Source: Solidesulfovibrio alcoholivorans DSM 5433 (GTDB taxonomy: Bacteria; Desulfobacterota; Desulfovibrionia; Desulfovibrionales; Desulfovibrionaceae). From it: a DNA stretch of 64,000 nucleotides. The notes beneath the pieces are model-generated. The model was given only the letters and a program-made list of their open reading frames with translations. It was not told the DNA's origin and searched no databases. Below are positions 1,311 through 49,733 of the stretch, piece by piece (position 1 is the first letter of the stretch; the number at the start of each line of letters is the position of its first letter). The position numbers were made by a program, and so were the translations under genes. The stretch covers positions 62,001 through 126,000 of the forward strand of contig NZ_JNJA01000007.1 of the NCBI RefSeq assembly GCF_000702665.1, read 5' to 3'.

Positions 1311-1313
1311 GAA

Positions 1314-6537: not shown

Positions 6538-6562
6538 CCCGATGACGCATTGTGCATACGCT
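6534..6562 (+). promoter_or_regulatory. Predicted brnTA promoter
   Basis: TTGACC (6534-6539), a 17-base spacer and TACGCT (6557-6562). Transcription would begin within a few bases of the brnT ATG at 6569, implying a leaderless or nearly leaderless message. This fits the absence of a ribosome-binding site before that ATG. Confidence 0.4.
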
Positions 6563-6568
6563 ATCCAC

Positions 6569-6838: not shown

Positions 6839-7178
6839 AGAAAACGGCAAGACCATCGTGCGCTACACGTTGGAAGAAGCAAGGAAGCTCCCCAGACTGA
6901 CCGACGGTTCCAGGGCCGACGCCATGACCGATGAGGAATTGACCGCCAACGCGCTTTCCGATCCAGACAACCCGCCGTTGCCGGAAGAGTTTTTCGAGAA
7001 GGCCAAGCGCGTGCGCCTGGAAGACCTTTTGCCCGAGACCAAGGAACGCGTTTGCATCCGCCTTGACCGAGATGTGCTGACGTGGTTTCGCGTCCAAAAG
7101 AAGAAGGGCTACCAGACGGCAATTAACGCAGTCCTGCGGGCCTTCGTAGAGAGCCAGGAACGCGGAAAAAGAACATAG
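6822..7178 (+). CDS. brnA: BrnA-family antitoxin
   Basis: A 118-residue antitoxin. The N-terminal half (YTLEEARKLPRLTDGSRADA, with acidic helices to residue ~70) should wrap the BrnT toxin. The C-terminal KERVCIRLDRDVLTWFRVQK, then KKGYQTAINAVLRAFVE, is the ribbon-helix-helix DNA-binding domain typical of BrnA. It neutralises BrnT and probably autoregulates the promoter at 6,534-6,562. A GGAAAGGAGG-type ribosome-binding site lies inside the end of brnT just before the ATG. The overlap with brnT implies coupled translation. Confidence 0.9.
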   Translation: MPKTYKENGKTIVRYTLEEARKLPRLTDGSRADAMTDEELTANALSDPDNPPLPEEFFEKAKRVRLEDLLPETKERVCIRLDRDVLTWFRVQKKKGYQTAINAVLRAFVESQERGKRT

Positions 7179-7469
7179 GTTCCCCCGTGGGACGCACTGG
7201 CTTGTCCTCAACGGGAAGATCAGAATATCAGGCTCAGCGCCCGAGGTGGGAGTGGGTGGTGGTCCGAAGTCTTCGGCCAGTGAGCCAAGGACGAGGCCAC
7301 AGAATTTCCAAAGAATCCTTAACCAAAGCTAGTCTGAAATCTTGAAATCATTGACTTTTACCAAAAAATCTGTGTTCCGAAATTCAAAATTTCGAATGTT
7401 CGAAAAATGCCTACGTGGCTTTATCCGAAATGACGTATTGATGCTGCTCGTTTACAAAATTATTTAGAT
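7179..7469. other. ~290-bp non-coding junction region
   Basis: No gene is visible. The left half is GC-rich and contains a small palindrome CCGAAGTCTTCGG. The right half is AT-rich with CGAAATT-CAA-AATTTCG near 7,378-7,394. It leads into a truncated IS66 transposase and is probably a scar of several insertions. Confidence 0.4.
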
Positions 7470-7787
7470 TTTATCGATCACAGCCGACACAGGAGGGTCC
7501 GGGTGGCCAAGACCTGCGATTCGCTGATCGACATGATCGTTGAGGAGATTCGCTTGAGCCCCATCGTCAACATGGACGAAACCACGGTCCAGGTGTTGCT
7601 CGAGCCGGATCGGGCCAACACCAGCAAGTCGTACATGTGGGTCGCCCGGGGCGGAACGCCGAGAAAGCCGGTCGTCGTGTTTCGCTATCATCCGACTTGG
7701 GCCGGCAGTGTGGCCGAGGAAATTCTCGGCGATTTCCAAGGTTATCTGCAGACCGACGGCTATAGCGGCTACGAAACCAGGTGTTAG
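7470..7787 (+). pseudogene. IS66-family transposase fragment
   Basis: About 100 codons of an IS66 transposase core (TnpC/DDE_Tnp_IS66). The segment LIDMIVEEIRLSPIVNMDET contains the first catalytic Asp, followed by the strand pattern YMWVARGGTP and QTDGYSGYE, which contains the second catalytic Asp. Both ends are missing: relatives are over 500 residues and continue beyond GYE, while here the frame stops 3 codons later. Homology probably begins upstream of the first GTG. No inverted repeats were found. This is a dead remnant marking a past insertion at the junction between GC-rich and AT-rich island DNA. Confidence 0.8.
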
Positions 7788-7851
7788 CGAAGGGGGCCGC
7801 CCCGTTAGTCAGGAGTGTTGAGGCATTACTCAACGCCTACTACAAGCATGG

Positions 7852-10164: not shown

Positions 10165-10200
10165 TATGCGCGATTCCTTTTTGTTTCATCAAATTTGTCT

Positions 10201-10231
10201 GCTGGCACCCGACAACACTTCGAGTGCCAGC
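10201..10231. promoter_or_regulatory. Inverted repeat upstream of the ATPase gene
   Basis: GCTGGCAC (10201-10208) and GTGCCAGC (10224-10231) form a perfect 8-bp stem with a 15-base loop, between the last microprotein ORF and the ATPase start. On the minus strand no T-run follows, so it is more likely an operator or processing site than a terminator. Confidence 0.35.
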
Positions 10232-10259
10232 TCTTTATCAACAAAAGATTCCGGAGACC

Positions 10260-10376
10260 TCACGTATTTCCTGCCAAAAAGAGACCTGACATAAAGCTAA
10301 TATCTTCCCTACTACCCTCCATCGGCAATGCCATGCAACAAAAATATTTTCTGCTAGCAAATATTCCACACTCCAT
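10260..10376 (-). CDS. Putative 38-aa microprotein (third of three)
   Basis: An ATG at 10376 with GGAGGAG 6 bases upstream opens a 38-codon frame that starts MECGIFASRKYFCCMALPME. The GGAGGAG motif overlaps the end of the preceding microprotein ORF. The product has three Cys in its first 14 residues and a hydrophobic C-terminal segment. Function is unknown. Support is the strong ribosome-binding site and its place at the end of a chain of coupled ORFs. Confidence 0.4.
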   Translation of the reverse strand: MECGIFASRKYFCCMALPMEGSREDISFMSGLFLAGNT

Positions 10377-10379
10377 TTT

Positions 10380-10451
10380 TTACTCCTCCATCTTTTCACG
10401 AATAAACTCAAGTACCGCCACAATCACCGGCACCCACGGAAATCCATTCAT
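10380..10451 (-). CDS. Putative 23-aa hydrophobic microprotein (second of three)
   Basis: The ATG at 10451 overlaps the stop of the preceding 43-codon ORF in an ATGA arrangement and has GGAGGT 5 bases upstream. The product starts MNGFPWVPVIVAVLEF and ends in a charged IREKMEE tail. It could be a minimal membrane or amphipathic peptide. It is too short for standard gene finders. No family is recognised. Translational coupling and a near-ideal ribosome-binding site are the evidence. Confidence 0.4.
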   Translation of the reverse strand: MNGFPWVPVIVAVLEFIREKMEE

Positions 10452-10579
10452 CGCATACCTCCTTCCTCATGTTGTTGTCCACACGACTCCCGTCCCAACA
10501 CCAAAAACCAGTTGGGCACTTTCACCTCACCACACCACGCTGGCTCACACTGCTCCTGACCTTTATTCCCTGTGTTCAT
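10448..10579 (-). CDS. Putative 43-aa microprotein (first of three)
   Basis: The ATG at 10579 overlaps the TGA stop of the VWA gene (ATGA) and is preceded by AGGAGG at 6 bases. The product starts MNTGNKGQEQCEPAWCGEVK, is soluble, and has three Cys (11, 16 and 33) and two Trp. It is the first of three tiny ORFs that continue the exonuclease-AAA-DUF3150-VWA operon with overlapping starts. Function is unknown. Confidence 0.45.
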   Translation of the reverse strand: MNTGNKGQEQCEPAWCGEVKVPNWFLVLGRESCGQQHEEGGMR

Positions 10580-12306
10580 GGCCGTCCTCCTGCTGGCCTT
10601 TGGGCCAAGGCCTTGTGCAGCAATGTGAACATCGCTTCCGGCAACTCTGACAGCGACTTTACGCCCACACTGGATCGCGGCAGCAAGGCCTGGATGGCTG
10701 CGGATTGGATGCCGATCCCGTAGACCTCAAATCCCAAGGTATGAGCGGTCCCCAGTACCCTTTGAGCGGCCGGCACCGAATCCGGCTCGCCATCCGTCAC
10801 GATGACGATCATCTTGCGATCCTCCTTGAGCAACACCATCTGCTGGAGCACCCACCACAAGACCTGGGCCAAGGGCGTGTAGCCTTCTGCCAGGATGTCG
10901 AGATGGGCGTGCACACGCTGCCCGTGTTCGATAAGCGGGGCCACGGTGACGCCGTCATGCGCACTGCCTGCCGGAAAGGTCGAGACCGCCACATTGATCC
11001 CTTTGATCCGCTCCAGGGCCAAGGCGACGGCATAGCAGGCCATGGCCGCCAATCGTAGCGGCTCCCCGGACATGGAACCACTGCTGTCGAGGAGCACGTG
11101 CACCGCCGTATGGACCGCCACCTTTTGGCCCCAAGCGGCGAACACACGGCCATCTCCGGTCAGCACCCGATGCAGCCGCTTCGTATCCAACCGGCCACGA
11201 CGCCCGCTTTGGCAACGCACCAACCGATGCGCCTGCAGCAGCCGATACAAGCGGGTCCGCATGGCCACGGACGCCTGCAGACACGCCTCCAGTTCGGAAG
11301 CGCCAAAGGGCTGCCCGGGCTTGTCGCCACGCCGGGCCACGGCCAGCGCCAAGTCGGGCGCATCCACCGCATTGGCGCAAAGCGTCTGCGCCAACTGCTC
11401 GCCCAGGTGCAACGGCCAGTCGCCCTCCAGAGGCGCGTCCAGCGCTTCCAGCAAGCTTTTTTGCACCACCCCGGCCTGGCCCTGGACCTCCTCCTCTTCT
11501 TGGGACGCAGCGGCAACAGGCACATTTTGCTCCGGTGCTAAAGCCTCATCCACCATGTCCTCGACGGGATCTTCCGACTCCTCCTTGTCCGCACCCGCCT
11601 CCGCTTCCTCCTCCTGCGCTACGGATTTCAAGCCATTGTCGCTCCCTTTGGGCATGGCATTTCCAGACGCGACAGCTTGTGCCTCCTTCCGGAGCACAGC
11701 GACAATTTCCTCGGCAAAGGTTATGGCGTCCTGGGTGCTCCGGCATGCTGCTCTCACACGGTCCAGGATTTCCTGGACGAGCGGCCACAGCCCCGGCAAA
11801 CAGGCCTCAATGGTGGCAACCGCCTTGTCCCGATTGGCCGATACCTCCGGCGCGTCCCAGGAGCGCACGGTGAGCAATATGGCGTTTAAAACGGACAGGG
11901 CCGGGGTGTTGTCCCCGGCCCTGTCCTCTTCGTCTGCGAAGTAATACGCGATGAGCCACCTGAAATTGTGGCGACAGCCTGGAAAGAGATCTCCCAGTTT
12001 GTTCTCCACCCGCCAGTCTTCCAGCGAATTCCAGATGTGCCTGGAAAACGGCGTGGACGGCCAGGCGGCCAGCGCATCAAAATCCGTTTCCCGGATATGG
12101 GCTGCCTCATGATCGATCAGGCCCCGGACCAGGGGCAACAGCGTCTCCTCTCCTTCCGCCGGCAAACTGGGCAGGCAAATGACCTTGCCGTCCGTATGGG
12201 CGTCCTTGCCGCCCATGACCACGGAAACGCCATAGGCATCCCCAAGAACCGCCGCCAGAAGCGGCAGGGATCGCAGTACGTGGCGCATGGTTCCCATGGC
12301 GCTCAC
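10576..12306 (-). CDS. CobT-like VWA-domain protein with HExxH motif
   Basis: A ~576-residue protein. The N-terminal part has LIDHEAAHIRETDFDALAAW (an HExxH at ~66-70), followed by IWNSLEDWRVENKLGDLF, resembling the metallopeptidase-like N-terminus of VWA proteins that pair with MoxR ATPases. An acidic Glu/Ala-rich region spans ~215-290. A VWA domain near ~405-570 has the MIDAS motif DSSGS and VTDGEPDS. CobT of aerobic cobaltochelatase is the named relative, but no cobalamin genes are nearby. The start is GTG at 12306, overlapping the DUF3150 stop (GTGA); ATG at 12297 is an alternative. It probably works with the AAA+ protein two genes upstream as a metal-dependent remodelling machine. Protease activity is unproven. 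Confidence 0.75.
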   Translation of the reverse strand: MSAMGTMRHVLRSLPLLAAVLGDAYGVSVVMGGKDAHTDGKVICLPSLPAEGEETLLPLVRGLIDHEAAHIRETDFDALAAWPSTPFSRHIWNSLEDWRVENKLGDLFPGCRHNFRWLIAYYFADEEDRAGDNTPALSVLNAILLTVRSWDAPEVSANRDKAVATIEACLPGLWPLVQEILDRVRAACRSTQDAITFAEEIVAVLRKEAQAVASGNAMPKGSDNGLKSVAQEEEAEAGADKEESEDPVEDMVDEALAPEQNVPVAAASQEEEEVQGQAGVVQKSLLEALDAPLEGDWPLHLGEQLAQTLCANAVDAPDLALAVARRGDKPGQPFGASELEACLQASVAMRTRLYRLLQAHRLVRCQSGRRGRLDTKRLHRVLTGDGRVFAAWGQKVAVHTAVHVLLDSSGSMSGEPLRLAAMACYAVALALERIKGINVAVSTFPAGSAHDGVTVAPLIEHGQRVHAHLDILAEGYTPLAQVLWWVLQQMVLLKEDRKMIVIVTDGEPDSVPAAQRVLGTAHTLGFEVYGIGIQSAAIQALLPRSSVGVKSLSELPEAMFTLLHKALAQRPAGGRP

Positions 12307-13322
12307 CAAAGCCCCATGCTGGGTATCCGCGCCCCGGCCCCTGGATCGGGCAAGGCCACACGTTCAAGTGATTCTTCATCCGATTCGTCCAACAGTTCCC
12401 CAAGGTCGTCCGGGGACGCTTCCGGCAATGGCGCGCGCAGGACCGCGTCGAGCACCGTGGCCGGGCCGTAGCCTTCGATGACCTTTTGGCTGTGCTCGAT
12501 CAGCGCATCAGGATCGCGCAGCAGGCAGACCAGGCCTTGGAGCATGAGCAGATCAGTGCCGGTGATGGTCCCCTTGCGGGGCAGACGCGACAGCGCCATC
12601 TGGACAATCTCCGCCACCGGAGCCACATGGGGCTCTACGAAGGTCAGGCCCATGAGCTTTTGGTACATGGTGCGAAGCGGCGAAAGGGCCTTGTGGGTGA
12701 CCTCCGTGCGGCCAGCATACACCTTGCGCCAAGTCTCATCGGCAGACTTGGCGATCTCGGTGAAAAGCGTTGCGCCAAGTTGCTCCACCTCCTCATACAA
12801 ACCAGAGGCGGCCATGGTTTCGGTATCGGGATGACCCATAAGCGGCGCGACCTTGTAGAACTGCCAGGCAAACCCCAGCCGGGCGCGCACATAGTCGCTG
12901 CCGACGGTCGCGTTGGCCAAGATGTTGGCCCAATCGGCATGCTTGGCGATCCAATCCCTGACCAGGCCATCGTATTCGGCCAGAAACACTTCCTTGTGGG
13001 CGAAAAAATCGTCGCGGATCACGGTCAGCTCCTGGACGATTTCCGTCGCCTTGTCCTCGGGAACGGCCCAGCCTCCGAGGAAACGGATGCCGTGCCGGTC
13101 CAAAAACGAAAAGGCCCGCGCCTTGAGCGTGCCGAAGATGCGCAGACTTTCCGGCGGCGCGATGCGCTTGCTGCCAAGGGACGCCAGATCTTCCGGCGGC
13201 AGGTCCACATGCCCGAAGTCTTCCAGAGTCAGTTTTTTGCGGGCCGACCACAGGGTAACATTGAGGTTGACGGCCAGGATGTTGTCCAACACGCGGATAT
13301 CGGAAAGGACGGGCGTATCCAT
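12303..13322 (-). CDS. DUF3150 family protein
   Basis: A 339-residue protein of the DUF3150 family, which is repeatedly found on phages and integrative elements between CobS-like ATPase and CobT-like VWA genes, as here. The sequence starts MDTPVLSDIRVLDNILAVNL and is mostly helical and soluble, with no membrane segment or catalytic motif I can recognise. Its C-terminus is acidic (LGELLDESDEESLE). I start it at the ATG at 13322, with GGAGGAG 5 bases upstream; the longer frame needs TTG. It overlaps the VWA start by 4 bases, so it is translationally coupled. It may be an adaptor or substrate-recognition subunit, which is inference. Confidence 0.7.
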   Translation of the reverse strand: MDTPVLSDIRVLDNILAVNLNVTLWSARKKLTLEDFGHVDLPPEDLASLGSKRIAPPESLRIFGTLKARAFSFLDRHGIRFLGGWAVPEDKATEIVQELTVIRDDFFAHKEVFLAEYDGLVRDWIAKHADWANILANATVGSDYVRARLGFAWQFYKVAPLMGHPDTETMAASGLYEEVEQLGATLFTEIAKSADETWRKVYAGRTEVTHKALSPLRTMYQKLMGLTFVEPHVAPVAEIVQMALSRLPRKGTITGTDLLMLQGLVCLLRDPDALIEHSQKVIEGYGPATVLDAVLRAPLPEASPDDLGELLDESDEESLERVALPDPGAGARIPSMGLW

Positions 13323-13344
13323 GTTCTCCTCCAAAGGATCAAGG

Positions 13345-14322
13345 TTATGCCGTCAGCGGAAACAGCCGCTGAGCCAGTTCGTGGAGCAGAGCCTGGGTTT
13401 CCTTTGTCGCGCGGTAGGCCAGGGCGCGGTCCAGGGCATAGGTCACCGGCTGGATGCCCTGGCGGGCAAGGGGCTGAAAACGGAGCGTCAGGGCGGCCCA
13501 ACGCAGCAACGTGCGGGTTGAAAAGGTCACTTCGATCGTCTTGGCGATTTCGCCCGAGGTTTGCCCGACGAAGAGCTTGCGCACCTCCTGGGCATACTCC
13601 ACCATACGGGATCGCACCGACTCGGGAAGCTGCTCCGCCTGGCGCTCCAGAAGGGCAAGCTCGGCCGAGGCCTCGGGATACCCCACTTCGCACAACCAGA
13701 AGCGGTCCATAAAAGCCAAGTTTTGCTGCAACGTCCCCTGGTAAAGACCGGTCTCGTCAAAGGAGCCGTTGGTGTTGGCCGTGGCTGCGAACCGGAACAT
13801 GGGATGCGGCGAAACGAGTTCTCCACCGTTTTCGGCCAGGCAAAGCGGCTGACCATCCAAGATGCCGTTGCAGCCGGCGGCAACATCCGGGCTGACCAGA
13901 TCAATCTCATTGAGCAGAAAGAGGCCGCCGTAGCGCATGGCCAGGGTCAAGGGACCATAGGTGTATTCCATGGAGCCCTCGCGCACGGCCAGGTGGCCGA
14001 CCAGATCGGCAAATTCCAACCGGCCGTGGGCCGTCACCTCGAAAACCGGATAGTGGAGCCTGGCGGCCAGTTCCTTGATCAAAGAAGTCTTGCCCGAGCC
14101 GGTTGGGCCAAACACGTACAGCGGATCGCTTTGGTCCAAGAACCAGACGATGATGTCGCGGCTGGATTCGTGGAACACGTAATCCGGCGACGGGATCGGC
14201 GTGTAGCGACACGGCGCGGCAAATCCCCGGACCTCCTTCCCGGACGACGTGCCGCTGAAAACCGTCCCGGCATCCAGTTCCGTGGGCTCCAGGGCATCGA
14301 GCTCCTGCAGGTCGTTGTTCAT
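13345..14322 (-). CDS. CobS/MoxR-like AAA+ ATPase
   Basis: A 325-residue AAA+ ATPase. Walker A is GPTGSGKTSLIKEL (~70-83) and Walker B is GGLFLLNEIDL (~131-141), followed by a NGILDGQPLCL turn and sensor 1 RFAATANTN. These are diagnostic of the MoxR/CobS clade, whose members form hexamers and act with VWA partners. The start is taken as the ATG at 14322, with GAGG upstream at 9 bases; the longer frame overlaps the nuclease gene without homology. It follows the nuclease stop by 11 bases and precedes DUF3150 by 22. It is predicted to supply ATP-driven remodelling for the island's recombination or replication module. Confidence 0.8.
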   Translation of the reverse strand: MNNDLQELDALEPTELDAGTVFSGTSSGKEVRGFAAPCRYTPIPSPDYVFHESSRDIIVWFLDQSDPLYVFGPTGSGKTSLIKELAARLHYPVFEVTAHGRLEFADLVGHLAVREGSMEYTYGPLTLAMRYGGLFLLNEIDLVSPDVAAGCNGILDGQPLCLAENGGELVSPHPMFRFAATANTNGSFDETGLYQGTLQQNLAFMDRFWLCEVGYPEASAELALLERQAEQLPESVRSRMVEYAQEVRKLFVGQTSGEIAKTIEVTFSTRTLLRWAALTLRFQPLARQGIQPVTYALDRALAYRATKETQALLHELAQRLFPLTA

Positions 14323-14333
14323 GGCGTTTTCCC

Positions 14334-15590
14334 TCAATTTGCGGTTGAAAATGAAGAGGCCACCCTGTCTTGGGTGGCCCCTGGTGTGGCGCGCATCGCC
14401 CGCACAAGCAGTCGTGTCGTCGGCTGCCCTCGCGTCTGGCATCGGGCAAGGAGTTGCTCCGCCTTTGAAACGGACCCTGTAAGGGCTGTGATTTCCTGGC
14501 GCAGTCTTTCCGTGTCGAGACCACGCCGTCCGTTTTGCTGCGCCAGTTTGCAGCGGTAGCCCCCTGCCTGAATCCAGGCGTGATTTGCCTGGCTCAGGGC
14601 GTATGCGGTACGGATCAGCTCCTCCTTTTCCTCAATCGTTTCCTCAAGGGCCTGCTTTTTCGCCTTCAGGGTAAAAAGCGTTCGCAGATCCCCTTCCCAG
14701 TCGTGATGCTCTTCTCCCCGAAACTTCGGGCAGTCCGCATTCCAATCGCAGTAGCTGCAGAGCCCATGACAGCCGTTGGCCGTGGGCAAGCTATCGATGT
14801 CGCTCCGGCCTTCCCGGCACGAGATGCAATGCAACCAGAGCGCGGATGCGGTCTTCAGGCACATCTCCAACATGGCCGGGTGCGCCACGTAAGGCCCAAA
14901 GGCCTTCCCATCGGTCATGGACAGGCAAAGGACCCAGGCCTGCAGATCCACCTGTTCGGGACGCTTGGGCAGTTTGACGCCAAGGCAGGCTTGGCAGAGT
15001 TCAGGAAAGGTCAGGCGGGAAGAAACCACGTGTCCGTTGGCGTCCCGCAGTGAGAAGGCCTTGGTGTTCCAGGCGGCATGGAGAAGCCCGACCTGGCCGT
15101 ACACCTGCGTTTCGTAAGACGTGTACAGCGCGTCCGGCAACCGCTGCGCGCTTTTGCACTCAAGGATGCGCACCGTGGGCACCGGCGTTGGACTCACGAG
15201 CACGAAGTCCAGGTGGGCACGAATGGGCGTCCCCTGGTGGATGATTTCGATCTCAAGTTGCCGTAGGAGCAAAAGATCATGGGCGTTTAGGGCATGGTCG
15301 ACCAGGTCCTCGAAGCAGTGCCCGCGCTGCAGCGTCAGATGCCGGCGCAGCGTTGCCTGCGCGAATTCAGGCGGCACGTCGTGGTCCCCTCCCCCTGCCG
15401 GCAACAGCTTGGACGCCACCGTCGCCCGCATGCATTCCATGGCCCGGCCCACGTCGCTGAGCCCCACGTATCCCGTGCGATCACCAAGGAATTTTTGAGT
15501 CGAAAGAGCAGCATACCGTTTGAGGCCTTGTGAAAGAATTTCAAGCAAGACCGAGGCTTGATCTTTTTGCATGACGAAATTCCTGTGCAT
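14334..15590 (-). CDS. Fe-S PD-(D/E)XK exonuclease (Cas4/RecB-like)
   Basis: A 418-residue nuclease. Core motifs are RGHCFEDLVDHAL, AHLDFVLVS (catalytic Asp), ILECKSAQRL (E-x-K, ~140-147) and YETQVYGQVGLLH (motif IV, QxxxY-like). A Cys at 53 and a C-terminal cluster GCHGLCSYCDWNADCP (~275-290) reproduce the one-plus-three Cys arrangement of Fe-S nucleases such as Cas4 and AddB. The C-terminal ~120 residues are helical, coiled-coil-like. A role analogous to lambda exonuclease, making ssDNA for the ERF protein, is inferred from gene order. The start is 15590 or the in-frame ATG at 15572, which has AGGA at 8 bases. A GC hairpin overlies its last codons. Confidence 0.8.
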   Translation of the reverse strand: MHRNFVMQKDQASVLLEILSQGLKRYAALSTQKFLGDRTGYVGLSDVGRAMECMRATVASKLLPAGGGDHDVPPEFAQATLRRHLTLQRGHCFEDLVDHALNAHDLLLLRQLEIEIIHQGTPIRAHLDFVLVSPTPVPTVRILECKSAQRLPDALYTSYETQVYGQVGLLHAAWNTKAFSLRDANGHVVSSRLTFPELCQACLGVKLPKRPEQVDLQAWVLCLSMTDGKAFGPYVAHPAMLEMCLKTASALWLHCISCREGRSDIDSLPTANGCHGLCSYCDWNADCPKFRGEEHHDWEGDLRTLFTLKAKKQALEETIEEKEELIRTAYALSQANHAWIQAGGYRCKLAQQNGRRGLDTERLRQEITALTGSVSKAEQLLARCQTRGQPTTRLLVRAMRATPGATQDRVASSFSTAN

Positions 15591-15600
15591 AGCGATCCCC

Positions 15601-15636
15601 CAAAAAAAGCGGGCTACCCCTGTGGGCAGCCCGCTT
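15601..15636 (-). terminator. Rho-independent terminator after the ERF gene
   Basis: On the minus strand, AAGCGGGCT and AGCCCGCTT (9-bp perfect stem, 12-base loop) are followed by a run of at least seven T. It lies between the ERF gene and the nuclease gene, so it should limit read-through into the nuclease-AAA-DUF3150-VWA operon. Confidence 0.85.
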
Positions 15637-15662
15637 ACGTTGACTGGATTTTGTGTGACCGA

Positions 15663-16391
15663 TCAGGAGGCATTGGCATACATCCACCACACCTTGCGTT
15701 GCGGGTTCCACCGAAAGCCTATCTCAGCCAGCATGTCCTTTTTCGCCGCCGTGTTTCCCATGGCGATGACACAGGTCCGCCCATCGTCGGCGGCAACGGT
15801 CTGGTAGGTGATGCCATCCATCTTGGGCAGGGTAGACGTCGGGATTGTCGTTGTCGGCGTGGCTGCTTTTGTCCCATTGCTGGTGGGACTGGGCACGCCA
15901 TGTGAAGATTTCTCCTGCGCATGGCGAGACGGCATGGACGCACGAGCGCCCTGCCGTGGTGCCGTCTTGGTCTGCGTTGTGGGCCGTGTCGCGCAGGCCC
16001 CTGTGCCGTCGTCGTCGGCGTCCGTAACGATCCCCAACATGGCGCTCAGCGAATACCGTCTGGCGTAGGTCATGGCGCTGCCCATGCCCTGCGGGTCGGC
16101 TTTTGGAAGCGGGACCACGGCAAGCGAGGCTTGCCATTGGCCGGATTTGGCATGGGTGAGTTTGGTGACGAGTCCCAAGTAGCCAGGATCGGCTGGAACC
16201 GGAAACTGCGTCATCCAGATGTCGTTTGAGAGCAGCGCGTCGCGACAGGATTCCATGACGCTGTTAAGGGTGGCGTATCTGTTGTGTACAAAAGGATTGG
16301 TCGCATCCTTGACCGCAGGTTGTAAGCTCTTTTGGACTGCGATGAGAGCCTTTGCCAATTCCGAGATTTCACTTGATTGATATTCAAACAT
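15663..16391 (-). CDS. ERF-family single-strand annealing recombinase
   Basis: A 242-residue ERF superfamily protein that anneals complementary ssDNA in phage-type recombination. The core (~1-130) includes NPFVHNRYATLNSVMESCRD and the hallmark DPQGMGSAMTYARRYSLSAM, then LGIVTDADDDG. A Pro/Thr/Ser-rich linker (~135-190) leads to a small C-terminal domain ending AAKKDMLAEIGFRWNPQRKV, a motif seen in unrelated island proteins and probably nucleic-acid related. AAGGAG lies 7 bases before the ATG. It is the first gene of the recombination block and is separated from the nuclease by a terminator. Confidence 0.88.
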   Translation of the reverse strand: MFEYQSSEISELAKALIAVQKSLQPAVKDATNPFVHNRYATLNSVMESCRDALLSNDIWMTQFPVPADPGYLGLVTKLTHAKSGQWQASLAVVPLPKADPQGMGSAMTYARRYSLSAMLGIVTDADDDGTGACATRPTTQTKTAPRQGARASMPSRHAQEKSSHGVPSPTSNGTKAATPTTTIPTSTLPKMDGITYQTVAADDGRTCVIAMGNTAAKKDMLAEIGFRWNPQRKVWWMYANAS

Positions 16392-16504
16392 TTATTAGCT
16401 CCTTTTCAATAAAAACTCCTCCCCATCATAGCAGTAATATATATCTGTAATCATTTGAAATACACGAGTGAAATTCAACTCAGCAATTTGAACACCAGGT
16501 GCAT

Positions 16505-18427
16505 CTATCTATCAATATACCTAAGCCATCTAAAGTCAATTCCGTAATCAAGTAACGATATTAGTTCATCATAACACATTTGGACACTAAACTTTGAGCC
16601 ATATTGACGTCCAGCAAGTTCAGATATTTCGTGTCCAAATACCTGCCGAAATAAATCATTTTGCATAGCTTTCTTCTTGTAAAAATCACTAAATGTATGC
16701 CGAAACGAATGGAATGTTTTACTTCCTTTAATTTCAAGACTTCGAATGAGCTTGCCAAAAGACTTGCCGGGCTGCTTTCCATATTTAGGCGAAGCTGCTG
16801 TTTTATTAAGCTCAGGGAATATCCTCTCCTGATTCCCCTCCTTCATTTTATTACAATACTCAACAAATCCGATCTCAACAAGAGTCTTGTGAACGGGAAT
16901 TATTCTGGTAGCGTTCTTATTCTTAAGCGTCTTGTCTATTTTTCCATCTATAGATGGTCGCGCGTTAACATCAATAACAAACAACCCAGATATTTCAGAC
17001 TCGTAAACATCTTCACAGTTCAATTGACAAATCTCCTCAAGCCTCATTCCGGTAAAGAGACTTACCAACGGTGTCCAATAAAACGATGGATACTTGAACT
17101 CATTTTTTATAAATTTATTACAGAAAAATATTTTTTTCAAATCAGACTCGTCAAAGGCATCACGCAACCCAATATCCTGCCTCTCATCTTTAACAGAAAG
17201 AGACTTTGCAGGATTAAAATTCAATATATTCTCCTTGACTCCCCACTCAAAGAGGCTTGAAGCCGCTTCAATAACCATATTTACCGTCTTAATATTCAGC
17301 ACAGTCGCAGGCTTCATTTCTAAAATCTCACTGATTGCCTTCCCCCTGTATTCTTTTAACTTCATCCTGTTTGGAGGCAACCTACGCAAGACGTCACGAA
17401 AATGGCGCATATCTTCTCGAGAGACCTTTGAAACAACCTTATCACCTAATATATCAACCAAGTTAACAAGCCTACACCTATGATCTGCAACACTGTGCTC
17501 TTTCCACTTTCCATCAGAAAGCTTCGCCTGGATATACTTTTCAACAAATTCAGACAACAATCCGTTTTTAACAGAATCAGACTGACCATTCTGACCATCA
17601 CTTTCAAGATCATCTTCTTCACTCACAACATCTTTATCTACAACTTCTTTAGCCAGAACTGGAGGACATGGATTACAAGAAGTTGCGAAGACAGCCTGCT
17701 CTGGCAAATAGTCGCCCTTAGACCGAGCTTCTTGAATCTTATGATTTGTCACCTGAATTTTTAAATACTCTTTTATTATCTGCAACACATTATCCTCCGA
17801 AATCTCTTTTTCTTTAAAAATACCCTCCGAACAAAGATTTGGAATGACTTCCACAGACAGATTTATAAGCTGTTCTGGATCGTTTACAATGCTTGTCAGC
17901 ATATTAGCATATGCCAAAGACACTTGCCCGCTCGTTAACTCAAAATCAGGAGTCTTTACATTCGGCCGAGGTCTGACATCACGGTCATCATTTTCGAGAA
18001 GCTGACGTAAGTATCCGTTCATGCGTTCCCGAATTACAGACTGCGAAACAGGCGTTTTATCCTTATCCTCAAGTAGTCGAACCAACCAATCCTTTAGCTG
18101 CTGTCGCAGTTCTTGGTAGTCCTCCATCCCATTCTCCAGAAGCGTTCGAAGTTTGAAACGCAAAGACATGGCTCTTGACCTTGCCTCACGCATATAGCCT
18201 GTTTCCAGACTCATGCGAATTTCAGCATGGCCCAGGCGATCGCGATCAAGCTTGGGAAAAGCGTACCGAAAATAAAAAAGATTGCCCTTGAGGTAAAGAT
18301 AGCTGGGGGAGGACCCCTTCAGGGACGGCGCAACGTGTCTCGAAGATTTTGCAGCAAAATTCCTTGGATCCTGTGGGAGTGAGAGTGCTTCCCCTCGACC
18401 ATGGAGCGACTGGCAGCTTGGTGACAT
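16505..18427 (-). CDS. int: Tyrosine recombinase (island integrase)
   Basis: A large phage-type integrase with an N-terminal DUF6538-like segment (SYLYLKGNLFYFRYAFPKLD). A SAM-like core-binding domain begins at LLSEFVEKYIQAKLSDGKWK and the catalytic domain follows. Catalytic residues visible are Arg in LFTGMRLEEICQL, the HxxR box in TFHSFRHTF, the His of FGHEISELAG and the Tyr of RQYGSKFS. It integrates or excises the island, and the adjacent tRNA-Leu 3' end is the expected attachment site. The frame is open to 18,538, but only TTG would serve there. I used the first ATG (18427). The homologous region starts near 18,300, so the true start is uncertain. The 5' part is GC-rich, the rest AT-rich. 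Confidence 0.9.
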   Translation of the reverse strand: MSPSCQSLHGRGEALSLPQDPRNFAAKSSRHVAPSLKGSSPSYLYLKGNLFYFRYAFPKLDRDRLGHAEIRMSLETGYMREARSRAMSLRFKLRTLLENGMEDYQELRQQLKDWLVRLLEDKDKTPVSQSVIRERMNGYLRQLLENDDRDVRPRPNVKTPDFELTSGQVSLAYANMLTSIVNDPEQLINLSVEVIPNLCSEGIFKEKEISEDNVLQIIKEYLKIQVTNHKIQEARSKGDYLPEQAVFATSCNPCPPVLAKEVVDKDVVSEEDDLESDGQNGQSDSVKNGLLSEFVEKYIQAKLSDGKWKEHSVADHRCRLVNLVDILGDKVVSKVSREDMRHFRDVLRRLPPNRMKLKEYRGKAISEILEMKPATVLNIKTVNMVIEAASSLFEWGVKENILNFNPAKSLSVKDERQDIGLRDAFDESDLKKIFFCNKFIKNEFKYPSFYWTPLVSLFTGMRLEEICQLNCEDVYESEISGLFVIDVNARPSIDGKIDKTLKNKNATRIIPVHKTLVEIGFVEYCNKMKEGNQERIFPELNKTAASPKYGKQPGKSFGKLIRSLEIKGSKTFHSFRHTFSDFYKKKAMQNDLFRQVFGHEISELAGRQYGSKFSVQMCYDELISLLDYGIDFRWLRYIDR

Positions 18428-18539
18428 GGCTTTGGCCCACGCCGGCGTCCGGCATGTTTGCCCCAGCACTTTGACCCTTTTTGCTACTTTGGCCAAATTA
18501 CTGGGCTTTTTGAAGCCTTGCCGCAACCCTGAATCCAAA

Positions 18540-18574
18540 AAGAAAAAGGGTTACAGCTAGTTAGCTGTAACCCC
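18540..18574 (-). terminator. Terminator of the tRNA-Leu transcript
   Basis: A perfect 12-bp inverted repeat, GGGTTACAGCTA/TAGCTGTAACCC (18549-18574), is followed on the minus strand by TTTTTCTTTTT, 9 bases past the tRNA CCA end. It also separates the tRNA from the integrase reading frame. Confidence 0.85.
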
Positions 18575-18582
18575 TGAAATCT

Positions 18583-18669
18583 TGGTGCCGAAGGGGAGAC
18601 TCGAACTCCCACCCCCTTGCGAGGACTAGACCCTGAACCTAGCGTGTCTACCAATTCCACCACTTCGGC
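18583..18669 (-). tRNA. tRNA-Leu(CAG)
   Basis: The acceptor stem GCCGAAG/CTTCGGC, D-arm, anticodon stem CTAGG/TCTAG with loop TTCAGGG (anticodon CAG), a class II variable arm (TCCTCGCAAGGGG region), a T-arm with GTTCGAGTC and encoded CCA are all present. The 3' end faces the integrase, so the gene remains intact and serves as the island's insertion point. Confidence 0.95.
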
Positions 18670-18683
18670 AGTGCAGAAGAAGG

Positions 18684-18712
18684 CTTATACGGAAGCGGCC
18701 CGTCCTTGGCAA
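18684..18712 (-). promoter_or_regulatory. tRNA-Leu promoter
   Basis: On the minus strand, TTGCCA (18712-18707), a 17-base spacer and TATAAG (18689-18684) lie 14 bases upstream of the mature tRNA 5' end. Confidence 0.75.
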
Positions 18713-18850
18713 GCGAAAAAATGCCTTCCCCCGCATTTTTTCTCCCTCGACGGAACCGCCCTCCGCGGTTGAAGCCGTCACGCATTTGCGGTAGCAAGGA
18801 CAGCGCGGCGGGCATGAACCGATTTTTCTCGCGCGCCGCGCCCAAACCCC

Positions 18851-19789
18851 ATGATTGTCGTCACCCGCGTCGAGGACATCCACGAGGCCTTAAGCGGCGT
18901 CTGCCTGACCATCGGCAACTTCGACGGCGTGCATATGGGCCACGCCAAACTGCTCGCCCGCGTCCGCGACCGGGCCGCTGCCGCATCCCTTGTCAGCGCC
19001 GCCCTCACCTTCGATCCCCATCCGCGCAAGGTCCTGCTCGGCGCGGCCGCGCCCCCGGCCATCACCGGCACCGAGCACAAGCTCGAATGCATGGAGGCCA
19101 TGGGCCTGCAACTGGCCGTGGTGCTGCCTTTCACCCGCGAACTGGCCGCCCGCGAGCCCGAGGACTTCGTGCGCGAGGTGCTCGTCGAGGGCCTTTGCCT
19201 CAAGCACCTCGTCATCGGCTACGACTACGCCTTCGGCAAGGGCCGCAAGGGCAATTTCGAGCTGCTCTCGGCGCTCGGGCAGAAATACGGCTTCGGCGTC
19301 GAACGCCTGGACCCGGTCATCATCAACGGCGCGGTGGTCTCCTCCACGCGCATCCGCGACATGGTGCTCGCCGGCAACGTCTGGGACGCCCGGCCCCTGC
19401 TCGGCCGCTTCCACCAGGTGCGCGGCACCGTGGCCCACGGGCACAAGCGCGGCCGCAAGCTCGGCTTCCCCACCGCCAACCTCGCCTTCCGCGAGGAGCT
19501 CGTTCCCCTCTCCGGCGTCTACGCCGTCTGGGTCGAACTGGACGGCGTCGTGCGCCCGGGCGTGGCCAACATCGGCAAGAATCCCACCTTCGGGGAATTC
19601 GAAATGTCCGTCGAAGCCCACATCCTGGACTTCAAAGGCAAAATCTATGGCGAGCACATCCGTGTGCATTTCGTGCAGCGCATCCGCAGCGAAAAGAAAT
19701 TTTCCGGCCCCGACGAGCTGATCGCCCGCATCCGCGAGGATATCGGCCTGGCCCGGATGATCCTGGCCGCACCGGATGCCAGGCCCTAG
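18851..19789 (+). CDS. ribF: Bifunctional riboflavin kinase / FAD synthetase
   Basis: A 312-residue cytoplasmic enzyme that phosphorylates riboflavin to FMN and adenylates FMN to FAD. The N-terminal nucleotidyltransferase domain shows TIGNFDGVHMGHAKLL (~20-35), GYDYAFGKGRKGN and VVSSTRIRDM. The C-terminal flavokinase domain has GRKLGFPTANL (~201) and VANIGKNPTFGE. Length and domain order are typical of bacterial RibF. The start ATG leads directly into the conserved N-terminal strand. It is followed 6 bases later by the ClC gene. Confidence 0.95.
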   Translation: MIVVTRVEDIHEALSGVCLTIGNFDGVHMGHAKLLARVRDRAAAASLVSAALTFDPHPRKVLLGAAAPPAITGTEHKLECMEAMGLQLAVVLPFTRELAAREPEDFVREVLVEGLCLKHLVIGYDYAFGKGRKGNFELLSALGQKYGFGVERLDPVIINGAVVSSTRIRDMVLAGNVWDARPLLGRFHQVRGTVAHGHKRGRKLGFPTANLAFREELVPLSGVYAVWVELDGVVRPGVANIGKNPTFGEFEMSVEAHILDFKGKIYGEHIRVHFVQRIRSEKKFSGPDELIARIREDIGLARMILAAPDARP

Positions 19790-19795
19790 CATCCC

Positions 19796-21643
19796 ATGGA
19801 CCAGCAGCAACCGTACCGGCGTCAGATACCCTCGTTCATACGCGGCCCCCGTATCGCCCTCAAACGATTGCTGCGCCGCTTCAGTCGCCAGGGCCTCATG
19901 CGCTGGCTGGCCTTCGGCGTCGTCACCGGCATCGGCTCCGGCATCCTGGCCTGCCTGTTCTACCTCGGCCTCGAACGTCTCTCCGGTTTTCTCCTGGTCC
20001 ACTGCGCCGGCCTCACCCTGCCGCACCCCTCCGGCGAATCCATGGTCCATGCCGTGCCCGGCCCCTACCGCCCCTGGCTGGTCCCGGTCTTCACCACTGG
20101 CGTGGGCCTCGTCACGGGCCTTCTCGTCACGCGCTTCATCCCCCAGGCCATGGACGGCGCGACCGACGGCACGGACGCGATGATCAAGGCGTTCCACAGG
20201 AATTCCGGCATCATCAAGCCGCTCGTGCCCCTGATCAAGGGCGCAACGGCCATCGCCACCATCGCCTCGGGCGGCAGCGCCGGCCAGGAAGGCCCCATCT
20301 CCCAGCTCGGCGCGGGTCTGGGCTCCTTTTTCGCCCAGCTGCTGCACCTGACCACGCGCCAGCGCCGCATCCTGCTGCTTGCCGGCGCGGCCGGGGGCCT
20401 CGGCGCGATCTTCCGCGCCCCCCTCGGCGGGGCCATCACCGCCGTGGAAGTGCTCTATTCCGAGGACTTCGAGGCCGAGGCCCTGCTTCCGGCCGTCGTC
20501 TCGGCCGTGGTCGCGCACACGCTGTTCTCGTTTTTCTTCGGCGGCGAAGCCATCCTCGACACGCCGACCTACGTCTTCGAAAACCCCATGGAGCTGCCAT
20601 TCTACCTGGCCCTGGCCCTGGTGGTGTCGCTCGGGGCGCGTATTTTCATCCGCTCGTTTTTCTTCTTCAAGTTCCAGATCTTCGGCCGGCTCAAGGACCG
20701 CTTCGGCTACACCGTGCCCATGGTCGTCGGGGGGCTCGCCATGGGGCTTTTCGGCATGTACTTCCCCCAGGTCCTCGGCGGCGGCTACGGCTGGCTCGAA
20801 CTGTCCATCAACGGCCAGCTCGGGCTCGGCTTTCTGGGCGGGCTTTTCTTCGGCAAGGTGCTCGCCACCTCGCTCACGGTGGGGTCGGGGCTTTCCGGAG
20901 GCATGTTCGCGCCGGCGCTTTTCCTCGGCGGCGCGGCTGGCGGCGCGGTCGGCCAGGTCGGGCACATGCTCTCGCCCTCGGTCGTGACCCAGCCCGGGGC
21001 CTACACGCTGGTCGGCATGGCCACCTTCTTCGCCGGCGTGGCCCACGCGCCCATCGGGCCGCTGATCATGGTCAGCGAGATCACGCAAGGCTACGGGCTG
21101 CTTGCGCCGCTGATGCTCTGCTCGGCCGTGGCGCTTGTGCTGTGCGACGACATCCACCTCTACGAGAACCAGGTGGAGAACAAGTTCGCCTCCCCGGCCC
21201 ACGTCTCGGACGCCACCAACAACATCCTGGAAGGCGTGCCGGTCTCGAGCGTGTTCACCCCGGGCCGGTCCACCATCCTCGAGGAAAGCGTCACCCTCAA
21301 GGCGCTTGCCCACATCATCTCGGGCACGAGCGAGCTGGTGTTTCCGGTCAAAAACGCCGAGGGCAAACTCTCCGGCATCCTGGCGCTCCAGGACGTGCGC
21401 TGCGTGGTCTTCGAGGCGTGCCTCCACGACCTCGTGCTGGTCAAGGAGCTCATGCGCCCGCCCGTGGTCGTACACCCGGACATGTCGCTCTACGACGCGC
21501 TCATGCTTTTTATCGAGACCGACCTTTCCCAGCTCCCCGTGGTGGCGTCCGAACGCCCCGACGCGGTGCTCGGCATGCTCGGCCGCCAGCACGTCTTCAC
21601 GGCCTACACGACCACCCTGCGCCATCTGAAACAGGAAGAGTAG
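19796..21643 (+). CDS. ClC-family chloride channel/transporter with CBS domains
   Basis: A 615-residue inner-membrane protein. The ClC core has ~10 hydrophobic segments and the anion-path motifs GGSAGQEGPISQLG (~158-171, equivalent to GxEGP) and GSGLSGGMFAPALFLGG. The cytoplasmic C-terminus (~475-615) contains two CBS domains that likely sense nucleotides, one ending LSQLPVVASERPDAVLGMLG. The segment conserved as GSGIP in many ClC proteins is not obvious near residue ~45, where GIGSGILACLF is seen. It probably exchanges or conducts Cl-. It is likely co-transcribed with ribF, given the 6-base gap. Confidence 0.9.
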   Translation: MDQQQPYRRQIPSFIRGPRIALKRLLRRFSRQGLMRWLAFGVVTGIGSGILACLFYLGLERLSGFLLVHCAGLTLPHPSGESMVHAVPGPYRPWLVPVFTTGVGLVTGLLVTRFIPQAMDGATDGTDAMIKAFHRNSGIIKPLVPLIKGATAIATIASGGSAGQEGPISQLGAGLGSFFAQLLHLTTRQRRILLLAGAAGGLGAIFRAPLGGAITAVEVLYSEDFEAEALLPAVVSAVVAHTLFSFFFGGEAILDTPTYVFENPMELPFYLALALVVSLGARIFIRSFFFFKFQIFGRLKDRFGYTVPMVVGGLAMGLFGMYFPQVLGGGYGWLELSINGQLGLGFLGGLFFGKVLATSLTVGSGLSGGMFAPALFLGGAAGGAVGQVGHMLSPSVVTQPGAYTLVGMATFFAGVAHAPIGPLIMVSEITQGYGLLAPLMLCSAVALVLCDDIHLYENQVENKFASPAHVSDATNNILEGVPVSSVFTPGRSTILEESVTLKALAHIISGTSELVFPVKNAEGKLSGILALQDVRCVVFEACLHDLVLVKELMRPPVVVHPDMSLYDALMLFIETDLSQLPVVASERPDAVLGMLGRQHVFTAYTTTLRHLKQEE

Positions 21644-48109: not shown

Positions 48110-48133
48110 CCGGCGACGCCCCGGCGTCGCCGG
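48110..48133 (+). terminator. GC hairpin, probable terminator
   Basis: CCGGCGACGCC-CC-GGCGTCGCCGG is a perfect 11-bp inverted repeat, followed after a few bases by a weak T-rich run (TTTCTTGTTCTTT). A second small hairpin, GCCGGC-TTC-GCCGGC, lies at 48067-48081. Together they insulate the next gene. Confidence 0.5.
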
Positions 48134-48144
48134 CTGGAAGTTTC

Positions 48145-48173
48145 TTGTTCTTTCAATAGATATTTTCTATTGA
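48145..48173 (+). promoter_or_regulatory. Promoter of the DsrE-like selenoprotein gene
   Basis: TTGTTC (48145-48150), a 17-base spacer and TATTGA (48168-48173), in an island of AT-rich sequence inside GC-rich DNA. Transcription would start near 48,180, about 15 bases before the ATG. Confidence 0.65.
48154..48172. promoter_or_regulatory. Palindromic operator overlapping the promoter
   Basis: CAATAGA-TATTT-TCTATTG is a perfect 7+7 bp inverted repeat lying across the spacer and -10 element, the classic position for a repressor. The cognate regulator is unknown. An Rrf2-type regulator is encoded at 54,994-55,437, but nothing links the two. Confidence 0.6.
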
Positions 48174-48194
48174 TTGTGACGAGAGGCATCGACT

Positions 48195-48515
48195 ATGCAA
48201 ATACTTATCATCCTTTCCAGTCCGGACCCCGAAATCAAATGGAACGCCGTGCGGCTCGGCAATTTCCTGCTCAACAAGGGCGAAGAGGTCACCATCTTCC
48301 TGAACGGACCGGCCGTGGACCTGCTGGCCGGGGACAGCGCGGCCCTGCCCATCGCGGCCGAGGCAAAACTCTTCGGATTGAGCGAAGGCCGGCTCGCCGC
48401 CTGAGGCAAATGCCTGGGCATCCACGGAGTGGAAGCCGAAGCGCCGGTTTCGTTGTCCAACATGCAGTTCCTCTATGACCAGATGCGGATTGCGGACAAG
48501 ATCCTGTCGTATTGA
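48195..48515 (+). CDS. DsrE-family selenoprotein (in-frame TGA = Sec at codon 70)
   Basis: The frame reads MQILIILSSPDPEIKWNAVR and on to codon 69, then TGA (48402-48404), then GKCLGIHGVEAEAPVSLSNM to a final TGA at 48515, 106 codons in all. DsrE-family proteins of this type have a strand-turn ending in CGxC followed by LKIRG-like residues and a C-terminal ADKVV(T/S)F. Here the C-terminal part (MRIADKILSY) is intact and the TGA falls exactly on the first Cys of CGxC, giving UGKC. A SECIS-like hairpin follows at the right distance. GAGAGG lies 8 bases before the ATG. Read conventionally, the product would be a 69-residue truncation lacking the redox motif. It is a small cytoplasmic protein probably handling sulfur or selenium redox chemistry. 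Confidence 0.82.
48417..48437 (+). promoter_or_regulatory. Putative bacterial SECIS element
   Basis: GGC-A-TCCAC-GGA-GTGGA-A-GCC: a 5-bp apical stem, an A-A mismatch and 3 more pairs, with a GGA apical loop starting 21 bases after the TGA. A short stem capped by a loop with G in the first two positions, ~16-37 bases after UGA, is the known bacterial SECIS pattern recognised by SelB. Confidence 0.7.
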
Positions 48516-48578
48516 ACAGAAAATCGGTATGCGGCCGTCCGCGTTGCCAACGTCGGCGGCCCGCGCTATAGCCCGGAA

Positions 48579-49733
48579 ATGAACGATTCCACGCGGCTTC
48601 CCGGGCGTTTCGCGGTCCTTTGTTGCGTGCTTGCGGTCCTTTTCGGCCTTTCCGGCTGCGCCGGCGTCGAGACGCCGGCTCCCGAAACGCCCAAGTCCCG
48701 CGCCGCCGCGCCGACGCCGCCGCCGACCGGGCTTTTCAGCCAGGCCGCGCCGACCACCCCCTGGAACACGCGCATCTCCCCGGCCAGCCAGCAGATCACG
48801 AGCTTCGCCGCCCTGGCCCCGGCCGTGGACCGCTCCATCGCCTACACGGCGCGAAAGCCCGCCGGAGCCGTGGCCGTGGACCGTCCCGGCGCGACCATGA
48901 CCTGGGGCCAGCTTCACCAGACGCTGGTCACGTTCCGCCGCATCCTGCCCGAACTCGACCGCGACCCGTCGCTCCTTTCCAAATATTTCAAATGGACGCC
49001 GCTCGATTCCGACACGCTCCTCACCGGCTACTACGAGCCCGAAATCGAGGTTTCGCGCACTTCCCACGGCCCCTACGTCTGGCCCATCTACCGCAACCCG
49101 GGGGCGCTTGCCAAAAAGCACAGCCGCGAGGCCATCGACTACCACGGCGCGCTGCGCGGCCGGGGACTCGAAATCGGCTGGGCCAAGGACCCCATCGCGG
49201 TCTTTTTCCTGCACGTCCAGGGCTCGGGCAAACTGCGCTTCGTGGAGGACGGCTCCACGGTCTACGCGCTGTTCGGCGGCAACAACGGCCACCGCTACGT
49301 GGGCGTGGGCCGGGTGATGGTCAACCGGGGCTGCTTTCCCGAGGAAGAGATGAGCATGCAGCGCATCCGCCGCTACCTCGAGGAGCATCCGTCGGAGATG
49401 CGGGAATACCTGACTTCCAACCCGAGCTACATCTTCTTCAAGGAATCGCAGACCCCGCCCGTGGGCGCCATGGGCGCGCCGGTCACGCCCCACGCCAGCG
49501 TGGCCGTGGACCCGGGATTCGTGCCCTACGGCACGTTGCTCGCCGTCGACGGCGACCTGCCCGGCTTTCCCGGGCCCGCGCCGGAACGCTTCACGGGCTT
49601 CGTCATGGCCCAGGACACGGGCTGCATGCGCGGCAACCACTTCGACCTCTACCTCGGACCGGGAGCCAAGGCCGCCCATCAGGCCGGGCTCATGAAGGGC
49701 ACGGCCAAGGCCTACGTCCTCATGCTCCGCTAG
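48579..49733 (+). CDS. mltA: Membrane-bound lytic transglycosylase A
   Basis: A 384-residue outer-membrane lipoprotein with lipobox LFGLSGC. The MltA barrel shows LLTGYYEPEIEVSRT, IAVFFLHVQGSGKLRF, GHRYVGVGRVMV and MREYLTSNPSYIFFKES. The 3D-type C-terminal domain has GFVMAQDTGCMRGNHFDLYL containing the catalytic Asp. It cleaves peptidoglycan, producing 1,6-anhydromuropeptides. A ~30-residue Pro/Ala linker follows the lipid anchor. It is followed 8 bases later by the RsbU-type regulator gene. Confidence 0.95.
   Translation: MNDSTRLPGRFAVLCCVLAVLFGLSGCAGVETPAPETPKSRAAAPTPPPTGLFSQAAPTTPWNTRISPASQQITSFAALAPAVDRSIAYTARKPAGAVAVDRPGATMTWGQLHQTLVTFRRILPELDRDPSLLSKYFKWTPLDSDTLLTGYYEPEIEVSRTSHGPYVWPIYRNPGALAKKHSREAIDYHGALRGRGLEIGWAKDPIAVFFLHVQGSGKLRFVEDGSTVYALFGGNNGHRYVGVGRVMVNRGCFPEEEMSMQRIRRYLEEHPSEMREYLTSNPSYIFFKESQTPPVGAMGAPVTPHASVAVDPGFVPYGTLLAVDGDLPGFPGPAPERFTGFVMAQDTGCMRGNHFDLYLGPGAKAAHQAGLMKGTAKAYVLMLR

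Follow-up and report, generated by a model that had tools for sequence, protein, structure and literature searches.

A DsrE-fold selenoprotein gene of Solidesulfovibrio alcoholivorans that shares a candidate operator with a selenium metabolism-associated LysR regulator

In the 64,000-nucleotide stretch of DNA analyzed here (the window), the gene sec-dsrE (48195–48515, forward strand, stop codon included) is almost certainly a genuine selenoprotein gene. Selenocysteine (Sec) insertion at codon 70, proposed in a preliminary description of the sequence, is supported by conservation of the in-frame TGA, by selection on the codons after it, by a covarying SECIS-like hairpin, by the presence of sel genes in the assembly, and by DsrE-like selenoproteins in the literature. 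Our overall reading, to which we assign a probability of about three in four, is that sec-dsrE forms a single-gene unit for a Sec-containing protein of DsrE/YchN fold, which would act by selenol-based transfer or reduction and whose transcription would be controlled by the regulator LysR_Sec_metab.

The gene was delimited by its ORF, TGA conservation, Pfam DsrE, an AlphaFold2 model, and Foldseek. Its frame starts with the ATG at 48195, and codon 70 is a TGA (48402–48404, forward strand) read as Sec 70, residue 1 of a UGKC motif. Past the TGA, the frame continues with GGC AAA TGC and runs for 36 codons to the stop TGA at 48513–48515, in line with the family-like continuation reported earlier. 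The 106-residue read-through product matches PF02635 (Pfam DsrE) with 30.1 bits (cut-off 22.7), its sole Pfam match, whereas the 69-residue stub has no Pfam DsrE match; the downstream half therefore belongs to the DsrE domain. Among eight same-genus copies, pN/pS was 0.33 for codons 71 to 106 and 0.22 for codons 1 to 69, and every column varies in the 36 triplets that follow the final stop (taken without realignment). Thus, the sequence beyond the TGA is protein coding. The window protein had no match in NCBIfam up to E 1 or in PHROGs up to E 0.001, and its two sequence matches in the PDB were both at chance level. Because no NCBIfam model matches, automatic annotation would probably cut the gene to 69 codons.

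The TGA is widely conserved. Among 59 related whole genomes, 23 yielded 27 matches, all with the in-frame TGA; their motifs were UGKC (22), UQKS (L018 and L020), UGKL (L023), and, in the distant L021 and L022, UGVC. Profile searches matched 74 of 348 genomes at the level of the class and 80 of 395 at that of the phylum, with an in-frame TGA at 79 of 88 and 69 of 94 listed places, respectively, some of the non-TGA places being partial matches that end short of the column. N-terminal patterns that exclude the Sec column, scanned over a named genome collection, yielded 25 loci, of which 24 pass the profile. All 24 have TGA at the Sec column, although the frame of one (L064) ends soon afterwards; their hosts are Solidesulfovibrio, Pseudodesulfovibrio, Humidesulfovibrio, Desulfomicrobium, Desulfosarcina, and others. 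The remaining locus, from Thiothrix, is weak and fails the profile, and no D. vulgaris record is among the 25. Conservation past codon 70, on which the preliminary description had made its proposal depend, is present, with codons 71 to 106 evolving as protein. The same description gave relatives CGxC at this column: Cys forms (CGTC, CGKC, and others) do occur, mainly in more distant groups, but the nearest relatives have Sec.

A recent duplication is seen in one genome (G028), where two widely separated sec-dsrE copies of a single contig (L012 and L024) encode identical proteins and agree in the translation of the 20 triplets upstream. Tandem DsrE genes elsewhere in the phylum place Sec beside Cys copies (UGVC with CGTC, UKKA with CGTC; L128, L123, and L132) or combine two Sec copies (L133).

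Bacterial SECIS elements are hairpins just after the UGA with a G in the apical loop. The core of the SECIS-like hairpin in the window (48420–48434, forward strand) has arms at 48420–48425 and 48429–48434 and a GGA loop at 48426–48428; its outermost pair is A–A, and five of six pairs form. In the fold of 48402–48452, GGC/GCC below the core stem extends the hairpin to 48417–48437 (forward strand). This fold of the 51 bases from the TGA has an energy of −21.8 kcal/mol (z −2.58), and 2 of 200 shuffles were as low. A hairpin with a GGA loop had been described as starting 21 bases after the TGA; such a hairpin exists, with the loop, not the stem, starting at that distance. The 51 bases align gap-free in 73 relatives, in which 97.7% of the core-stem cells (columns 19–24 with 28–33, GGN loop) are paired, against 32 to 61% for slid versions of the stem. 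Changes on both sides were found for five of the six pairs, none of 500 shuffles (uncorrected for kinship) reached any of five core-stem measures, and RNAalifold recovered the same stem. The first base of the apical loop is G in all 73 rows, and the second is G in at least 90%. Certain compensations alter the encoded residue: in L106, L110, and L111, Glu becomes Lys as GTGGAG turns into GTGAAG on one side and CTCCAC into CTTCAC on the other. Among 17 Cys homologues, 49 of 102 cells in the stem columns are paired, and two of the loops start with GG; this loss of the stem is not clean, since L108 and L118 keep five of the six pairs and L117 and L129 keep four. An Rfam search of 48150–48650 gave no SECIS family, only four matches under their gathering scores. 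As a predicted element, the window hairpin fits a bacterial SECIS with G in the apical loop, and a figure legend in PMC1088965 notes conserved apical-loop guanosines.

The same assembly encodes SelB (340.3 bits), SelA (610.3 bits), and SelD (335.1 bits), all over their cut-offs, together with a tRNA-Sec of 81.5 bits (weaker matches of 49.5 and 48.3 bits also exceed the gathering score), and a search for selA, selB, selD, and the tRNA gene, advised earlier, thus found each of them. The selD gene itself carries one TGA. Two formate dehydrogenase alpha subunits, each with one in-frame TGA, and a second sec-dsrE copy (L026, contig C28 of the same genome, G000) suggest that Sec decoding is in use elsewhere in this genome. 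The assembly has a listed contamination of 7.78%, so genes on other contigs could in principle be foreign. Together, a DsrE domain over the full read-through, a conserved in-frame TGA with UxxC, a SECIS-like hairpin, and Sec-decoding genes in the genome mark sec-dsrE as a DsrE-like selenoprotein gene.

The best AlphaFold2 model of the protein, with residue 70 modeled as Cys, has a mean pLDDT of 93.5; three of the five models exceed 92, and two are poor (68.9 and 54.6). Foldseek identified the DsrE fold, with TMq of 0.86 to YchN (1jx7), 0.82 to chain A of DsrEFH (2hy5), and 0.79 to chain A of 3pnx. Residue 70 is the last of a strand and is followed by a short helix. The DsrE fold by itself points to sulfur transfer, and in the modeled structure the selenol would serve as nucleophile or as carrier when sulfur (or selenium) is transferred or reduced.

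A tree was built from those of the 143 profile hits that gave distinct rows with 98 or more residues, 111 in all (94 Sec and 17 Cys; the Cys rows were fetched deliberately, and this ratio is no survey). The window gene is on one side of a well-supported (100/99) branch with 72 rows, of which 70 are Sec and 2 are Cys. The Sec/Cys label changes seven times over the whole tree, at least six of these changes being forced by well-supported branches, with few resolving columns. In 17 of the 94 Sec rows the Cys at +3 is replaced (UGKL in nine, UGKS in three, UQKS in two, UKKA in two, and UGKR in one), and eight of the 17 have no Cys at all within the matched stretch. By sequence, the partner Cys appears dispensable in relatives while Sec is kept, which is new relative to the literature searched, and the UxxC label is too narrow for the wider family.

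These rows bear on an earlier suggestion that Sec 70 creates a selenylsulfide redox centre. Because its partner Cys is present, the window protein may form a selenylsulfide; as a general mechanism of the family, the suggestion does not hold, given the Sec rows without a partner Cys. Classical UxxC selenylsulfide oxidoreductase chemistry, with thioredoxin-like reduction instead of sulfur or selenium transfer, is a possible but rather doubtful account of the protein. It would fit the +3 Cys of 77 of the 94 Sec rows, the UGKC of 54, and the UxxC class given to DsrE-like selenoproteins in two reviews (PMC9312934 and PMC13188914). Against it stand the Leu, Ser, Ala, or Arg at +3 in the other 17 rows, the eight without Cys, and a modeled fold that is that of sulfur-transfer proteins. 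We retain transfer or reduction by the selenol as the preferred reading of the chemistry.

Three elements were recognized upstream of sec-dsrE. An inverted repeat that has arms of 11 bases and a T-rich stretch behind it (48110–48133, forward strand), overlapping a terminator-like stem at 48121–48137, is the probable end of the upstream transcript. An operator-like inverted repeat, CAATAGATATTTTCTATTG (48154–48172, not assigned to a strand), was identified from its pattern in relatives and from a LysR-promoter matrix; it lies at −41 from the ATG, and its pattern, ATxG-N7-CxAT, is what we take to be a LysR-type form. A Shine–Dalgarno-like GAGAGG, read from the sequence, is located at 48181–48186 (forward strand), 8 bases before the ATG. 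Because a terminator-like repeat lies upstream and no neighbor recurs widely, sec-dsrE is probably its own transcription unit.

The arms of the operator-like repeat vary together upstream of many copies (ATAGA/TCTAT, ATCGA/TCGAT, and ATTGA/TCAAT), and in 14 genomes of the genus, the strict form also stands directly before a LysR gene in three (G003, G009, and G011). The LysR behind this shared site is NF040786 (LysR_Sec_metab), "selenium metabolism-associated LysR family transcriptional regulator," with 266.1 bits (cut-off 250). The LysR of the window's own genome scores 269.4 bits against the same cut-off, and all eight LysR proteins of a second test pass. An orthologue was present in 28 of the 30 genomes chosen, including three (G003, G011, and G013) that lack a sec-dsrE match. 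The own-genome regulator gene (L208 5773–6666, contig C5 of G000) follows ribosomal-protein and RNA-polymerase-alpha-like genes and precedes flagellin-like and tungstate-binding-protein-like genes, all named by resemblance. Further sites occur near the tungstate-binding-protein-like gene by lysR (L208 8067 and L210 3423), at differing distances.

The pattern AT[ACT]G-N7-C[AGT]AT was present at −31 to −36 in 17 of 24 lysR upstreams, against a mean of 0.22 and a maximum of 2 in 300 shuffled runs that ignore kinship. The 24 come from 29 loci, the start of five not being placed by the motif and G009 giving two rows; in G119, the lysR site is at −108, outside the 90-base upstream set. For sec-dsrE, we used Sec rows with 90 upstream bases, the last 60 non-repeated, and divided them into 70 K-type (motif UGK, UQK, or UGS) and 24 V-type (UGV, UGT, UGA, ULT, or UKK). 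The pattern was found at −39 to −41 in 23 of the K-type upstreams (shuffled mean 0.86, maximum 5, again ignoring kinship) and in one of the V-type upstreams. A matrix made from 16 lysR sites ranked 48154–48172 first of 63,982 window positions, with 18.2 bits; with the window's own genus removed (8 sites), the repeat ranked second in the window. The lysR-site matrix gave more than 13 bits to 30 of the 94 sec-dsrE upstreams, against six positions in the whole window. The second sec-dsrE copy has a site of 14.6 bits at −41, and the own-genome lysR has GTATAGGTTTTGTCTATGG at −33. By pattern and position, sec-dsrE and the own-genome lysR promoter share a putative operator-type site.

Genome-wide counts of strict patterns showed no excess: ATAGA-N5-TCTAT, counted once as a palindrome, occurred at 21 places in the 14 genus genomes and its reversed control at 17, and ATAG-N7-CTAT occurred eight times in the own genome against nine for the control. 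Since these counts are near their controls, the pattern alone defines no regulon, and the operator signal rests on position and gene context. The own selA, selB, selD, selC, and two fdhA loci have no strong site (best 6.6 bits). A 14.1-bit site in the wider selA/selB stretch (L201 9710) falls within a 571-codon ORF, and a 20.0-bit site at L212 5407, lying 0.8 kb from the second copy of dsrE, was set aside as it falls within a cytochrome-like ORF. The two genomes without a regulator match at 1e-40 (L010 and L017), few as they are, also lack the site, and in those of L074, L088, and L094, the regulator and its site are present with a dsrE that has no good site.

The repeat might instead be a promoter or leader feature, such as an extended −10 element (TATAGAT, for example) or an RNA hairpin at the ribosome binding site, that is shared by chance or composition. 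We regard this as unlikely. The repeat does lie where a −10 box could be, TATAGAT is the reading of several copies, in some relatives the ATG is preceded by further half sites (ATAGAC), the promoter is undefined because a sigma-70 scan returned none, and the absence of a genome-wide excess would also agree. However, the arms vary as a palindrome, the LysR_Sec_metab upstreams have the pattern at a fixed position far above the shuffled mean, and a matrix built from LysR sites only puts the window site first. An extra half site (ATAGAC or ATCGAC; 48188–48193 in the window) just before the ATG of many copies could be a regulator contact or part of a leader hairpin around the ribosome binding site.

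No widely recurrent neighbor, and so no operon partner, was found among the 25 loci (first 40 clusters, neighbors not annotated singly): clusters that span 13 to 16 loci consist of dsrE or of frames overlying it, and the others have at most five loci. Partners of DsrFH or TusBC type were likewise not recognized among recurrent neighbors, which were not annotated singly. By resemblance, the second copy in the own genome (L212, contig C28 of G000, about 4268–4585) is located between a flavodiiron-like gene and cytochrome nrfH/nrfA-like genes. In L051, L063, and L064, probably one family, sec-dsrE is located between ilvN-like and ilvC-like genes (also named by resemblance) of a branched-chain amino acid operon. 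Elsewhere in the window, positions 1–20000 look like a genomic island: GC content is 46 to 51% in four of five 4-kb blocks and 61% in the fifth, against 66 to 71% after 20 kb, and a tRNA-Leu (cag) is located at 18583–18669, near the end of the low-GC stretch. Two ORFs within it, at 7503–7787 (94 codons) and 7852–10164 (770 codons), resemble a transposase fragment and an ATPase, respectively.

Sec could also be a ligand that traps a metal or metalloid rather than a redox or transfer group. Relatives with Sec but no Cys in the matched stretch fit a ligand as well as a nucleophile, and such roles are proposed for the SaoB, SaoC, and UXX-star selenoproteins in passages of PMC13188914. This account is quite improbable: no recurrent neighbor (neighbors not annotated singly) points to metal resistance, and a lone Sec with no other soft ligand would be a poor site unless an oligomer gathers several. 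Least of all is the TGA a plain nonsense mutation of a Cys codon in a pseudogene, or a sequencing error, a virtually untenable account which the small size of the protein and the single base between TGA and TGC or TGT would allow but which conflicts with the TGA of all 27 matches in 23 genomes, its conservation across genera, the selection on later codons, the covarying hairpin, and the sel genes.

The preferred reading, a selenol-based DsrE protein under LysR_Sec_metab, would operate as follows. A single-gene transcription unit would yield the 106-residue DsrE/YchN-fold selenoprotein, with UGA 70 decoded as Sec through SelB, tRNA-Sec, and the predicted hairpin directly downstream. Sec 70, at the strand end before the short helix, would take the place of the first Cys in CGxC-type relatives. 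Most likely, the selenol of this residue would both attack and act as the carrying atom when a thiol/persulfide (or selenide) group is transferred or reduced, and the step would be resolved by the Cys at +3 or by an outside thiol. Transcription would most likely be under the control of LysR_Sec_metab, which appears to bind the 48154–48172 repeat as well as a site of this kind ahead of the lysR gene. The shared, fixed-position sites before sec-dsrE and LysR_Sec_metab genes suggest that sec-dsrE expression is controlled by selenium status, with the protein level tracking selenium supply.

We advance a further-reaching idea only tentatively: the DsrE selenoprotein may be a dedicated LysR_Sec_metab target outside the sel genes and a selenium-status-dependent carrier, for a sulfur or selenium atom, whose only indispensable residue is Sec, as the relatives with no cysteine in the matched stretch would allow. 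If so, the protein would belong to selenium homeostasis itself rather than being one more redox selenoprotein. DsrE-like proteins are among the selenoproteins whose functions passages of PMC13188914 call largely uncharacterized. A named regulator and a defined candidate site offer a handle on this physiology, since the response to a change in selenium can be tested in sulfate reducers. The probable link to a selenium regulator is new relative to the literature searched: no connection between LysR_Se and the DsrE selenoprotein was found in the portions available of papers naming LysR, selenoprotein, and DsrE, a search for selenium, LysR, Desulfovibrio, and selenoprotein found no paper (most subscription journals lie outside both searches), and the word "LysR" is absent from the text of PMC13188914.

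Among known systems, YchN (1jx7), 2hy5, and 3pnx have the same fold as the window model. The window protein differs from them in an identity of 21% or less, in Sec in place of Cys, and in having no widely recurrent gene neighbor (neighbors not annotated singly). YedF (TIGR03527), as presented in sections of PMC5322559, has a DsrE-like C-terminal domain with CGxC and a link to selenium. The window protein is not a YedF: it has no SirA/TusA domain, only 106 residues, DsrE as its only Pfam match, and no NCBIfam match up to E 1 (the YedF score cut-off is 110). Weak YedF matches under that cut-off did occur in four of eight related Cys and Sec forms. Assignment as a TusD/DsrE sulfurtransferase subunit (TIGR03012) was rejected on the same lack of an NCBIfam match up to E 1. 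The regulator corresponds to LysR_Se, proposed as a selenium regulator, whose archaeal form HrsM represses Cys isogenes (passages of PMC5322559 and PMC11097638) and was later verified by experiment, according to part of PMC9312934. These sources, in the portions concerned, tie LysR_Se/HrsM (NF040786) to Sec biosynthesis genes and Cys isogenes and state no link to a DsrE-like selenoprotein; in the window's genus and family, the regulator's own gene carries the same kind of site as sec-dsrE. DsrE-like selenoproteins have been in print since 2005, so the window gene belongs to a known kind: passages report them from a Sargasso Sea survey (PMC1088965) and, in 2006, from Desulfovibrio vulgaris (PMC1794560), and tables in PMC2398784 include them, which agrees with the statement of the preliminary description that deltaproteobacterial surveys report them. 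The UGKL, UGKS, UQKS, UKKA, and UGKR forms of the relatives described here are absent from the published tables available, and the D. vulgaris protein is compared by description only. As far as those sources extend, the published proteins (including WP_014524487.1 in PMC9312934 and PMC13188914) have Pfam DsrE, UxxC, and a predicted SECIS, as in the window, and the protein of PMC1794560 shares with the window gene a deltaproteobacterial host.
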